From contig JAUIIG010000018.1 in assembly GCA_030431875.1 (NCBI GenBank), forward strand, positions 1 to 54,113: a stretch of 54,113 nt of DNA, given 5' to 3'. The stretch comes from Alphaproteobacteria bacterium (GTDB lineage: Bacteria; Pseudomonadota; Alphaproteobacteria; Sphingomonadales; Sphingomonadaceae). Each line of letters starts with the position of its first letter. Within the stretch, counting starts at the first letter, position 1. Of this stretch, positions 4,740-30,641 are shown piece after piece. Position numbers and translations under genes: made by a program. The notes under the pieces are model-generated. The model saw nothing but the letters and a program-made list of their open reading frames with translations, did not search any database and was not told the DNA's origin.

Positions 4740-6266
4740 ATGAGCGCATTCGGACGCAAGAACGGCGCAGGGGGGATGTCCAAGGGGGCACGTCCGAGCT
4801 TCGGCGTTGCCAAGCCCATGCGCGGTGGCGGCGGGGCTCCCGCGCCATCCTCCGACGATGGCGCCGCTGGTGGTGACCAGTTCCCGCCGGTGCCTGCCGA
4901 AGGCGCACCGGTCGACGCTCCGGCAAACAAGCAATCCGATGCCATGAGCCGCCTCGCGGACCGTTCCAACGCGGTCCACGACCATTCCAGCGAGCTTGGC
5001 GGCTTCGAAGCCAGCGTCCACAAGATCAAGGAACAGGTGCTGCCGCGCCTGCTCGAACGCGTCGATCCCGAGGCAGCCGCCACGCTGACCAAGGAAGAGC
5101 TGTCGGAAGAATTCCGCCCGATCATCATGGAAGTGCTGGCCGAGCTGAAGGTCACCCTCAACCGCCGCGAACAGTTCGCGCTGGAAAAGGTGCTGATCGA
5201 CGAATTGCTCGGCTTCGGTCCGCTCGAAGAGCTGCTGAACGACCCCGACGTGTCGGACATCATGGTGAACGGTCCGGACCAGACCTACATCGAAAAGGGC
5301 GGCAAGCTCGTCATCGCGCCGATCAAGTTCCGCGATGAAAGCCACTTGTTCCAGATCGCCCAGCGTATCGTGAACCAGGTCGGCCGCCGCGTCGACCAGA
5401 CCACGCCGCTGGCTGACGCCCGTCTCAAGGACGGCAGCCGTGTGAACGTCATCGTGCCGCCGCTGTCACTGCGCGGCACCGCCATCTCGATTCGTAAGTT
5501 CTCCGAGAAGCCCATCACGCTGGACAACCTGCGCGACTGGGGCTCGATGAGCGACAAGATGTGTACCGCGCTGAAAATCGCCGGTGCCTGCCGCATGAAC
5601 ATCGTCATCTCGGGCGGTACCGGCTCGGGCAAGACGACCATGCTCAACTCGCTGTCGAAGATGATCGACCCGGGTGAGCGCGTGCTGACCATCGAAGACG
5701 CCGCCGAACTTCGCCTGCAGCAGCCGCACTGGCTGCCGCTGGAAACGCGTCCGCCGAACCTTGAAGGCCAGGGTGCCATTACCATCGGCGACCTCGTGAA
5801 GAACGCCCTGCGCATGCGTCCTGACCGCATCATCCTGGGCGAAATTCGTGGCGCGGAGTGTTTCGACCTCCTCGCCGCCATGAACACCGGCCACGACGGC
5901 TCCATGTGTACGCTCCACGCCAACTCGCCGCGTGAGTGCCTCGGCCGTATGGAAAACATGATCCTGATGGGCGACATCAAGATCCCGAAGGAAGCCATTT
6001 CGCGCCAGATCGCCGAATCGGTTGACCTGATCGTACAGGTGAAGCGCCTGCGCGATGGTTCGCGCCGCACCACCAACGTCACCGAGGTGATCGGCATGGA
6101 AGGCGACGTGATCGTGACGCAGGAGCTGTTCAGCTTCGAGTATCTCGACGAAGGCGACGACGGCAAGATCATCGGCGAACACCGCTCGTCGGGACTGCGT
6201 CCCTACACGCTCGAAAAAGCCCGCCAGTTCGGCTTCGACCAGGCCTATCTTGAGGCTTGCCTGTAA
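4740..6266 (+). CDS. cpaF: CpaF/TadA type secretion ATPase
   Basis: A 508-residue cytoplasmic ATPase of the VirB11/TadA group that powers assembly of Flp/Tad pili. Residues 1-100 are a low-complexity Gly/Pro-rich lead-in. The N-terminal domain contains GFGPLEELLNDPDVSDIMVN near residue 160, the Walker A GGTGSGKTT near residue 290, an Asp box around LTIEDAAEL, the Walker B-like RIILGEIRGAE and the His box GHDGSMCTLHANSP. All are intact and length is normal. It is not accompanied by cpaB, cpaC, cpaE or tadB/C here, so it is a solitary copy or displaced from a tad locus elsewhere. Downstream is a hairpin-rich spacer. Confidence 0.92.
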   Translation: MSAFGRKNGAGGMSKGARPSFGVAKPMRGGGGAPAPSSDDGAAGGDQFPPVPAEGAPVDAPANKQSDAMSRLADRSNAVHDHSSELGGFEASVHKIKEQVLPRLLERVDPEAAATLTKEELSEEFRPIIMEVLAELKVTLNRREQFALEKVLIDELLGFGPLEELLNDPDVSDIMVNGPDQTYIEKGGKLVIAPIKFRDESHLFQIAQRIVNQVGRRVDQTTPLADARLKDGSRVNVIVPPLSLRGTAISIRKFSEKPITLDNLRDWGSMSDKMCTALKIAGACRMNIVISGGTGSGKTTMLNSLSKMIDPGERVLTIEDAAELRLQQPHWLPLETRPPNLEGQGAITIGDLVKNALRMRPDRIILGEIRGAECFDLLAAMNTGHDGSMCTLHANSPRECLGRMENMILMGDIKIPKEAISRQIAESVDLIVQVKRLRDGSRRTTNVTEVIGMEGDVIVTQELFSFEYLDEGDDGKIIGEHRSSGLRPYTLEKARQFGFDQAYLEACL

Positions 6267-6267
6267 C

Positions 6268-6390
6268 TTGCCTTTCGCTCCGACCTCCGTCGGAGCGTCC
6301 TCGGTGCTGTTCGCTCCGCTTCGCTGCGCGGCACCTGCGGTCGCGCAGTCGCGCTCTGTCGTGCGCTAATCGCGCCCGAGGTCAGCACCA
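6268..6390. repeat. Hairpin element D, first structured element after cpaF
   Basis: Starts 11 bp after the cpaF stop with an 8-bp perfect stem GCTCCGAC/GTCGGAGC (6277-6284, 6289-6296) closed by loop CTCC, followed directly by GTCCTCG (6297-6303). Element A, 100 bp further on and inverted, carries the mirror arrangement: CGAGGAC then an unrelated 8-bp stem with loop GGAG. Within D, GGTGCTG (6303-6309) can pair with CAGCACC near 6383-6389, enclosing smaller hairpins such as CTGCG-GTCG-CGCAG. I see no open reading frame. It could be a terminator for cpaF, though no T-run follows. Confidence 0.55.
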
Positions 6391-6408
6391 CCTAGCAATC
6401 TTGCACTG

Positions 6409-6507
6409 GAAACGGTCACGCCAGTGACCGCAAGGCCGACTGGCCGCCCGCAGCGGGCGCAGCTCTGCTGCGCGTCTAGCGAGGACGAAGCCGCGGAGGC
6501 GGCTTCG
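6409..6507. repeat. Structured dispersed repeat, copy A (99 bp)
   Basis: About 90% identical to copy B at 30532-30630. It holds five hairpins in a row: GGTCAC-GCCA-GTGACC (6414-6429), GGCC-GACT-GGCC (6434-6445), GCCCGC-A-GCGGGC (6446-6458), CGCAG-CTCTG-CTGCG (6458-6472), then CGAGGAC and GAAGCCGC-GGAG-GCGGCTTC (6487-6506). All ten differences from copy B are in loops or form one compensated pair. It ends 13 bp before the stop of the converging gene at 6521. Seen directly; function unknown. Confidence 0.85.
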
Positions 6508-6520
6508 CAAGGAAACGATC

Positions 6521-6751
6521 CTATCCCCTGATCCAGCCGACAGCGGCGAAACTCATGAGCGCCAAGCCAATAAATGTGCTCAGCGCGGCGATATCGCGCC
6601 AAGGCACGATCCCCACGGCGTCCACGTCCTTGCGCTTGGCGCGGCGACGGTCGCCCCATACTGACAGGGCAGAAAGCAGCAGGAAGGCCCCGCCCCACAG
6701 GCCGAACAATGTCGCATCGCTGGCGAATTCAATCCAGTTGGGCAGCTTCAT
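6521..6751 (-). CDS. Small two-helix membrane protein, unknown function
   Basis: A 76-residue protein with two hydrophobic segments (about 13-31 and 52-72) separated by a basic, polar loop rich in R/K (GDRRRAKRKD). It has no signal peptidase motif and no recognisable domain. The reading frame is flanked by the structured repeat at its 3' end and is divergent from the EamA transporter at 6803, leaving about 50 bp for two promoters. Composition matches the neighbouring genes, so it is probably a real conserved small inner-membrane protein, but I do not recognise a family. Confidence 0.6.
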   Translation of the reverse strand: MKLPNWIEFASDATLFGLWGGAFLLLSALSVWGDRRRAKRKDVDAVGIVPWRDIAALSTFIGLALMSFAAVGWIRG

Positions 6752-29571: not shown

Positions 29572-30528
29572 ATGAAGAAGCACCTTTTGGCCGGACTTGC
29601 CGGTGCCGCCCTGCTGGCCGGATGCGGCGGCAGTTCGGAACCTGCCGACATGTACACCGAAGCCGAAGCCCCGACACAGGACTTCGGCTTCATGGAGGCA
29701 GAAGAGCGCGGTATCCTCGACGTGTTCGAAGGCGACGAAGAGGCAGCGGTCGAGCAGGTCACAACAGTTGATATCGAGGAACCCGCAGGAGCAGCTTCCA
29801 GCGAGAACGAAATCCCCGTCTCCATCCCGCAGATCGCCTACACCTACGAATACGGTTTCCGCATTTCGGGGAGTGAGATTCCCGCCTTGCAGGCGCGTCA
29901 CGTGGCCATGTGCGAGGACCTGGGGCCGCAAGGTTGCCGGGTCATCCAGATGCGCAGCTCGGGCGGCGAAGGCGACTATGCCAGCGGCTACCTGCAACTG
30001 GCCGTCGCGGCAGAGCAAGCGCGGGCATTTGGCAACCAGTTGGCCGAGAGCACCGAAGGTGAAGGCGGCGAGCAGACCTCTGCTTCGATCACTGGCGAGG
30101 ACCTGTCCAAGCAGATCGTCGATACCGAGGCCCGCCTGCGCGCCCGCATCCTGCTGCGCGACCGGCTGATGGAAGTGCTCCGCACCCGCACCGGATCGGT
30201 CGCCGAACTGGTCGAGGCAGAGCGCGGCGTGGCGCAGGTGAACGAGGAAATCGACCAGGCGCAAAGCTGGCTGGCAGAAATGCGCGGACGGGTGAATTTC
30301 AGCCGCATCGACGTACAGTACCAGAGTGGTGCTCCGGCAGGCGGCGGGTTCATGGAACCGGTCCGCAATGCCCTCGGCTCGCTGAGCGAAGTGCTGGGCT
30401 ACGTGGTCGCGACGATCATCATGCTGCTGGCCGTGGTCGGCCCCTTCGCCTTGCTGATCTGGGGCGGTCTGGCCCTTCGCCGACGGATGAAGAAGCCCGC
30501 AGCTACCGAACCAACAGGAGAGGACTGA
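29572..30528 (+). CDS. DUF4349 lipoprotein
   Basis: A 318-residue membrane lipoprotein. The signal MKKHLLAGLAGAALLAGCGG has lipobox LLAGC. Residues 85-125 form the beta part (AYTYEYGFRISGSEIPALQA), 180-245 a coiled coil (LSKQIVDTEARLRARILLRD, VEAERGVAQVNEEIDQAQSW), and 270-305 a membrane helix before a basic tail RRRMKKP. This beta/coiled-coil/helix order is DUF4349. AGAAGGAG precedes ATG 29572. The stop is 3 bp before structured repeat copy B. Confidence 0.88.
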   Translation: MKKHLLAGLAGAALLAGCGGSSEPADMYTEAEAPTQDFGFMEAEERGILDVFEGDEEAAVEQVTTVDIEEPAGAASSENEIPVSIPQIAYTYEYGFRISGSEIPALQARHVAMCEDLGPQGCRVIQMRSSGGEGDYASGYLQLAVAAEQARAFGNQLAESTEGEGGEQTSASITGEDLSKQIVDTEARLRARILLRDRLMEVLRTRTGSVAELVEAERGVAQVNEEIDQAQSWLAEMRGRVNFSRIDVQYQSGAPAGGGFMEPVRNALGSLSEVLGYVVATIIMLLAVVGPFALLIWGGLALRRRMKKPAATEPTGED

Positions 30529-30531
30529 CCC

Positions 30532-30630
30532 GAAACGGTCACGGTAGTGACCGCAAGGGCAAGCGCCCGCCCGCAGCGGGCGCAGCTTGCCTGCGCGTCT
30601 AGCGAGGACGAAGCCGCGGAGGCGGCTTCG
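30532..30630. repeat. Structured dispersed repeat, copy B (99 bp)
   Basis: Close copy of 6409-6507, in the same orientation, also between converging genes. Hairpins: GGTCAC-GGTA-GTGACC, GGGC-AAGC-GCCC, GCCCGC-A-GCGGGC, CGCAG-CTTGC-CTGCG, CGAGGAC, GAAGCCGC-GGAG-GCGGCTTC. Compared with copy A, the second hairpin changes C-G to G-C as a pair; all other differences are in loops. It starts 3 bp after the DUF4349 stop and ends 11 bp before the ferredoxin stop. Confidence 0.85.
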
Positions 30631-30641
30631 AAAAACAAACC

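Follow-up and report, generated by a model that had tools for sequence, protein, structure and literature searches.

Anatomy of the repeat element

The window, that is, the whole stretch of 54,113 nucleotides that was analysed, contains two similar 99-base sequences at positions 6409–6507 (copy A) and 30532–30630 (copy B). Copy A lies between a cpaF-like gene, whose stop is at 6266, and a convergent gene of 76 amino acids, whose end is at 6521; all gene names (cpaF, rpmH, and others) were assigned by eye. The first-pass annotation had delimited copy A as 6409–6507. This interval is a real repeat but covers only a part of a composite element that extends from about 6267 to 6516. The following features were recognised.

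6267–6516, plus strand: copy A in its long form, the whole composite element, as read from the sequence
6273–6358, minus strand: left module, a relative of the right module in inverted orientation (covariance-model match, E = 9.5e-8)
6276–6297, minus strand: left terminal hairpin, inverted, with the sequence CGCTCCGAC-CTCC-GTCGGAGCG, then GTCCTCGG
6413–6430, plus strand: hairpin 1 of copy A, with the variable stem CGGTCAC/GTGACCG
6434–6445, plus strand: hairpin 2 of copy A, GGCC-GACT-GGCC, which alternates with GGGC/GCCC
6446–6458, plus strand: hairpin 3 of copy A, GCCCG-CAG-CGGGC, near-invariant in the copies of the source genome
6459–6471, plus strand: hairpin 4 of copy A, GCAGC-TCT-GCTGC, with two length classes across copies
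6478–6486, plus strand: conserved tag AGCGAGGAC ahead of the terminal hairpin, the final C being the first stem base
6486–6507, plus strand: hairpin 5, right terminal, with a covarying 9-bp stem and a GGAG loop
6508–6516, plus strand: A-rich tail, family consensus NAAAACAAA, ending at or near the neighbouring stop codon
30529–30641, plus strand: copy B in its short form without left module, filling the entire gap between two convergent stop codons
30536–30553, plus strand: hairpin 1 of copy B
30609–30630, plus strand: hairpin 5 of copy B

The right module follows a fixed order of variable hairpin 1, GCAAG, hairpins 2, 3, and 4, TAGCGAGGAC, hairpin 5, and an A-rich tail of approximately nine bases. 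Its hairpin 2 is either GGGC/GCCC or GGCC/GGCC. The conserved unpaired sequence ahead of the terminal hairpin is GCGAGGA, as read from an alignment of 26 copies of the source genome (GCA_030431875.1). For wider counts, we used a set of 96 copies from this genome and its relatives, consisting of the 97 best-scoring of 142 covariance-model matches minus one duplicate. To judge from their coordinates, most of the 45 lower-scoring matches outside this set are left modules that adjoin a right module. The copies of the relatives come mostly from score-sorted match lists and are thus a non-random sample. The loop of the terminal hairpin is GGAG in 61 and GGAT in 28 of the 96 copies.

The long form of approximately 250 bp joins the right module to an inverted, related left module, so that tagged hairpins face outward at both ends; its inverted ends measure about 40 bases. 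By pattern, a first type of left module is present in 39 of the 96 copies, with a doubtful call at L252, and is replaced in 13 copies (L009, L174, and L259 among them) by a second type, CCTCAAGCGCCGG...GGCTTC. The end modules look exchangeable, and the element is built as a mosaic whose outer ends are tagged hairpins. Some copies (L206, L016, and L047) have other small palindromic repeats nested within them, including units of the CCCCGGACTTGATCCGGGG type and GAGTCGCAGACGGGGCGACGCCCC repeats. At L271, L248, L276, and L019, one more AGGAC-tagged unit lies beyond the terminal hairpin, which is why the minimal unit may be the tagged hairpin of about 40 bases alone.

Position-by-position comparison of copies A and B gave exactly 10 unlike positions among 99, the number that had been counted in the first-pass annotation. 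Loops account for seven of them; two more belong to a single compensated pair of hairpin 2 (C-G in copy A, G-C in copy B), and one falls into the innermost pair of hairpin 4, which is C-G in copy A and C-C in copy B. The accompanying statement that no stem change was left unpaired therefore holds if this innermost pair is counted as loop, but not otherwise. With 60 of the 99 positions paired, three or fewer of the ten changes would fall into stems by random placement with P = 0.042. Since this makes the A/B pair alone weak evidence, the weight must come from further copies.

The view that the element holds no conserved coding frame was borne out. Modules of 80, 81, and 85 bases are all common, and these length classes break the frame in any reading; a coding element was rejected on this ground. 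The same minus-strand frame is open in both copies (6366–6698 and 30399–30638 of the window), and the residues that it specifies are similar. In other copies, the length classes break this shared frame as well.

Copy number and distribution

At E ≤ 1, BLAST with copy A returned 48 matches in the source genome, with many short ones among them. The covariance model, built from the 26 copies of this genome, gave 37 matches at E ≤ 1e-5. As these include left modules, the number of elements is approximately 30 rather than 37. The pattern AGCGAGGACN{4,12}GGAGG occurred 25 times in the same genome, and its reversed control did not occur.

Of 40 genomes of the genus, 39 had covariance-model matches (1 to 37 each) in the search of the relatives that had been proposed together with the structural claim. 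Within the bacterial family, 25 of 119 genomes had matches, the source genome included. In a class-wide draw, 2 of 190 genomes matched, namely the source genome and another member of the same family; the 119-genome and 190-genome searches used stricter filters, by which weak matches may be lost. Among 31 relatives searched at the DNA level, 18 had matches. Every one of these 18 belongs to the same genus, and the 12 genomes from outside it had no match. In a pattern scan of named genomes, 63 of the 80 matches listed carried names of Erythrobacteraceae or Sphingomonadaceae and 17 those of other groups; among the 63, Aurantiacibacter, Erythrobacter, Qipengyuania, and Porphyrobacter were the main genera.

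Maintenance of the paired structure

In the alignment of the 26 copies of the source genome, 98.8% of the cells at paired positions were paired, compared to (85.1 ± 1.0)% in shuffled alignments. Cells with a double change numbered 58 versus 18.6, and the covariation score was 0.322 versus 0.087. None of 500 shuffles reached the observed value of any of these three measures. The number of pairs with a double change and the number of further pair types did not exceed the shuffles of this alignment, being reached by 317 and 130 of 500, respectively. Hairpin 5 showed changes on both sides at six of its nine pairs in these 26 copies.

An extended alignment of 140 distinct rows had double changes at 17 of 20 pairs, and none of 500 shuffles reached any of the five measures. 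When the structure was slid along this alignment, pairing dropped to 26–40%. The 140-row alignment was fitted to the structure model and is therefore biased towards the structure, and the shuffles of both alignments kept the column make-up but not the relatedness of the copies.

Across the 96 copies, hairpin 5 had 35 distinct 5' arms and 44 arm pairs. All nine pairs were intact in 71 copies, which had 20 different stems among them, and the loop had four bases in 95 of the 96. Uncompensated stem changes in additional copies had been named as the observation that would speak against a selected structure. Such changes were rare and did not overturn the claim, with 31 non-Watson–Crick cells among the 864 of the terminal hairpin, located in 25 of the 96 copies. 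Hairpin 1, defined by at least 5 bp and at most one mismatch, was found in 80 of the 96 copies with 50 distinct arm pairs, as compared to 14.7% of shuffled sequences. Even at sites common to several genomes, the stems of hairpin 5 were unlike at 14 of 16. Hairpin 3 showed hardly any variation among the copies of the source genome, and the predicted RNA folds of copies A and B agreed on hairpins 1 and 5 alone. We conclude that the two outer hairpins are well supported as maintained paired structures. Hairpin 5, hairpin 1, and one pair of hairpin 2 have the strongest evidence, and the structure of the middle of the module is less certain.

Position at gene ends

The flanking genes of 27 copies of the source genome were called with a home-made gene finder. 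Listed as left/right neighbouring gene end, 13 copies were flanked by STOP/STOP, 10 by START/STOP, 4 by STOP/START, and none by START/START. Hence, none of these 27 copies lay between divergent genes; all sat between convergent or tandem ones. The right end faced a stop in 23 of the 27, and in 18 of those 23 the distance was −1 to +4 bases. The gene finder misses short genes: at L004, the right-hand neighbour was called at 204 bases, and by eye the end of a short rpmH-like gene lies only a few bases from the element.

Among the stop codons that the same gene finder placed at element ends, TAG accounted for 38 of 79. Elsewhere, it accounted for 26 of 100 (Fisher P = 0.003), and 15 of 50 genes of the window end in it. 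In addition, CTA directly followed the 9-base tail in 16 of the 96 copies. This enrichment of TAG and CTA hints at a target preference, and it stays a hint because all three stop codons occur beside elements. The location itself is familiar. According to passages of PMC3733652, repetitive extragenic palindromes (REPs) of S. wittichii and P. entomophila lie within 20 bases of 3' ends, and a part of PMC12306157 states that E. coli REPs within 15 bases of stop codons stall ribosomes. The position next to stop codons is thus a trait shared with known REPs.

Shared, empty, and inverted sites

Three sites were compared among the genomes G013, G012, and G010. At the site of copy A, G013 carries an element, while G012 and G010 have just 15 and 12 bases, respectively, between the matched flanks. 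At the second site, the element is again present in G013, and the stop codons overlap, by eye, in G012 and G010. At the third, both G013 and G012 have an element, the two facing opposite ways, and in G010 a gene takes its place. This gene (contig C12, about 135732–136683) reads by eye as a PhyH-type dioxygenase. Because some species have no element at such shared sites, it is dispensable there.

Comparison of the flanks of the 96 copies identified 46 same-site pairs across genomes, of which 24 had the same and 22 the opposite orientation; these pairs come from 16 sites and are not independent. Both orientations were present at 11 of the 16 sites. In hand-made pair lists (20 same, 24 opposite, as distinct from the 24 and 22 obtained by rule), shared-site copies were 0.79 identical in the same and 0.80 in the opposite orientation, compared to 0.77 for other copies of the same two genomes. 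Thus, the place is conserved, the orientation is not, and the sequence is conserved weakly. Among the passages and listings of the open-access literature that we searched, no report of orientation flips at shared sites was found.

These data bear on a possible alternative to repeated insertion, namely that the copies are old, vertically inherited occupants of 3' ends that were flipped and homogenised in place. The inverted end modules of one copy would recombine with those of another, by gene conversion in either pairing, and both content and orientation would be swapped. Taking at least 90 matching flank bases on one side as a shared site, 19 of 27 element loci of the source genome matched element loci retrieved from relatives, which is above the chance level of 4 in 23 random pieces of the window (P = 0.0002). 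Conversely, 28 of 80 loci retrieved from seven genomes of the genus matched an element locus of the source genome. Nine genomes of other genera contributed 40 loci, of which 17 matched (G045, 5 of 11; G121, 4 of 9; G032, 4 of 5; G088, 2 of 6; G076, 1 of 5; G107, 1 of 1; G044, G062, and G055, 0 of 1 each). Loop variants particular to some genomes are also in line with this reading: GGAG prevails in the source genome (G000; 25 of 27), and GGAT in G001 (10 of 11) and G007 (6 of 6). The loops are genome-specific in part, and homogenisation is incomplete, as G014, G017, and G002 mix GGAG and GGAT. At the rpmH-like site, moreover, hairpin 1 looks by eye as if it had been inherited in place with compensated changes.

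Against vertical descent stand the sites without element in G012 and G010 and the identity of shared-site copies, which is little above the family average. Simple flipping would also require an inverted left module, which the short forms do not have, and the homology of the ends is short and their stems are variable. Taken together, two observations favour old, vertically inherited copies that were flipped and homogenised where they stood: the strength with which sites are shared across genera, and a hairpin 1 that looks inherited. Repeated insertion is favoured by the element-free sites, the mosaics, and the low identity at shared sites. We consider repeated insertion that is blind to orientation somewhat more likely than in-place flipping of old copies; in either case, the mode of spread is our inference.

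Structure at the level of RNA or DNA

An RNA structure maintained on one strand would be expected to show many more G-U pairs than A-C mismatches on that strand. In the 864 cells of hairpin 5 (96 copies), 10 G-U and 14 A-C were counted, and 6 and 7 remained when the outermost pair was disregarded. The two are about equal, so nothing points to a one-strand RNA. The stem changes are best explained by a need for the hairpin on whichever strand, for example as folded single-stranded DNA. The first-pass annotation had attributed the pattern to selection on RNA or cruciform structure. The kept pairing, well supported for hairpins 1 and 5, agrees with the structural core of that proposal; its RNA half found no support, and a DNA cruciform or single-strand hairpin fits better.

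A structured RNA family, either a small RNA or an RNA element of 3' UTRs, would account for the strong covariation in the 26 copies and in the 140 rows. Copies A and B also fold better than their shuffles on either strand (z = −3.1 to −5.3), and from their place behind stop codons many copies should be transcribed as 3' UTR. However, the G-U and A-C counts have no strand bias, and one and the same site carries both orientations across genomes. Scans of copies A and B for promoter-like sites and for terminators found none. An Rfam search of the window gave no match above the gathering score; the weak match around copy A, S10-Clostridia, scored 15.6 bits, far below the cut-off of 35.1. We therefore regard selection as RNA as unlikely.

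A proposal for the spread of the element

The observations are probably explained jointly by non-coding palindromes of the REP/BIME kind that are read by an enzyme as folded DNA and that recurrently land at, or convert, 3' gene ends. Under either mode of spread, the freedom of the stems, combined with the conserved loop, tag, and tail, points to recognition of a folded strand. Accordingly formulated, the proposal has the following steps. An enzyme acting in trans would read the hairpins while the DNA is single-stranded and folded, for example on the lagging strand. This enzyme would recognise the loop, tag, and tail, not the stem sequence; since it would ignore the latter, the stems could drift in paired steps. 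New copies would land in, or convert, a limited number of tolerated sites at 3' gene ends in either orientation, and copies in place probably give the flanking transcripts a 3' end that is structured and symmetric.

A bolder version is more doubtful: a palindrome orphaned from its transposase that is repeatedly re-inserted at, or flipped within, the same stop-codon sites in different species and genera, blind to both orientation and stem sequence. If true, there would be an enzyme that reads folded single-stranded DNA by its loop, AGGAC tag, and A-rich tail and that is aimed at gene ends. The element would then represent a palindrome family in which place is conserved and orientation and sequence are not.

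The known enzyme for recognition of folded, tagged hairpins is the RAYT transposase. A search for the Y1 transposase domain PF01797 (RAYT) gave no match in the source genome, the assembly of which is 96% complete, and matches in 3 of 40 genomes of the genus. Among the 119 genomes of the family, 25 bear the element, 21 bear PF01797, and 2 bear both. RAYT was rejected as the engine on account of its absence from the source genome and from 37 of the 40 genus genomes. In addition, L221–L224, four of the 25 RAYT matches listed, were without an AGGAC-tagged perfect hairpin of at least 7 bp. A composite transposon was likewise rejected. Three pairs of copies face outward, with hairpin 5 at the outside, at a distance of 2–3 kb (C67, 1325/3883; C45, 49013/51013; C33, 45323/48524); the genes between them read by eye as housekeeping genes, and no transposase was recognised among them.

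It is quite improbable that the element is a miniature inverted-repeat element (MITE) left behind by a conventional DDE transposon. The inverted ends of about 40 bases in the long form, the dispersed copies, and the empty sites would suit such an origin. On the other hand, a transposase that reads sequence would hardly tolerate freely varying end stems, many copies have one end module only, and no target-site duplication was evident by eye in two comparisons of filled and empty sites, the flanks of which are diverged. Portable intrinsic terminators are the least probable reading. In their favour are the location at convergent and tandem 3' ends and one copy, at the rpmH-like site, that has a GC hairpin and a T run at its end when followed in the direction from hairpin 5 to hairpin 1. 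Against them, the terminator scans of copies A and B were negative, and three or more T followed only 16 of 79 hairpin-1 structures.

Comparison with known repeat families

The element has the general properties of REPs in the broad sense, with many dispersed intergenic copies that lie downstream of genes and, among the 27 whose flanks were called, none between divergent genes. Like BIMEs, it contains an inverted pair of palindromic units, as the left module was matched on the opposite strand. The CcrM-linked intergenic repeats form a class with GANTC sites as a feature; such methylation sites are present in 3 of the 96 copies, and we rejected them as the basis of the element. In titles and abstract openings of the open-access literature, no description of this AGGAC-tagged repeat family was found.

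The CGTC REPs of alphaproteobacteria are, as described in passages of PMC3733652, dispersed palindromes with stems of 8–9 bp, loops of 4–5 bases, and no dedicated transposase. They are mostly opposed when paired, and no more than 20 bases separate them from the 3' end of a convergent or upstream gene (PMC3733652). The present element resembles them as a dispersed palindrome near 3' ends without dedicated transposase, and its 9-bp stem and its loop, of four bases in 95 of 96 copies, fall into the same size range. The two differ, however, in the unpaired tag, which is AGGAC here and CGTC there, and in the start of the stem, as the CGTC tag and the AT at stem positions 1–2 were not found in the 26-copy alignment. 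The tail is A-rich in composition rather than CCA, and the hairpin forms the end of a multi-hairpin module of 80–250 bases. The words "Erythrobacter," "Sphingo," and "Novosphingobium" have no occurrence in the text of PMC3733652, in which S. wittichii and an N. species are abbreviated.

With the GTAG REPs and REPINs and their RAYTs, the element shares inverted pairs of tagged hairpins and compensatory hairpin changes, the latter reported for REPIN hairpins in part of PMC3116915, and in both cases the classes differ between relatives (passages of PMC3116915 and PMC3686654). In contrast to these systems, the 26-copy alignment has no unpaired GTAG-type tag beside the hairpin, and the source genome has no RAYT match. 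BIMEs and RIMEs are of a size similar to that of the element. According to excerpts of PMC3733652 and PMC3686654 for the BIMEs of enterobacteria and of PMC2573895 for the RIMEs of rhizobia, all are intergenic mosaics of palindromic modules. The likeness is one of description; the module set analysed here was found by the covariance model in its own bacterial family only. The GC42 clusters of yeast mitochondria, as far as described in passages of PMC4478555, are also short, mobile, GC-rich hairpins under structural constraint. In those clusters, the stem is the conserved part and the loop the variable one; in the present element, the loop is kept and the stems change in pairs.

How tagged palindromes spread without a dedicated transposase is stated as an open question for the CGTC REPs in a passage of PMC3733652. 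The AGGAC-tagged family is small, with at most 37 model matches per genome of the genus. A small repeat that the model searches found in one bacterial family only, with filled, empty, and flipped states of the same site in relatives, makes a tractable natural data set. It is suited to telling insertion from in-place flipping and to testing whether the stem matters as structure alone. Given that the tag, tail, and stem start of the CGTC REPs and the tag and transposase of the GTAG REPs are both missing, the element represents a new variety of the REP/BIME type that belongs to neither of the two tagged superfamilies.
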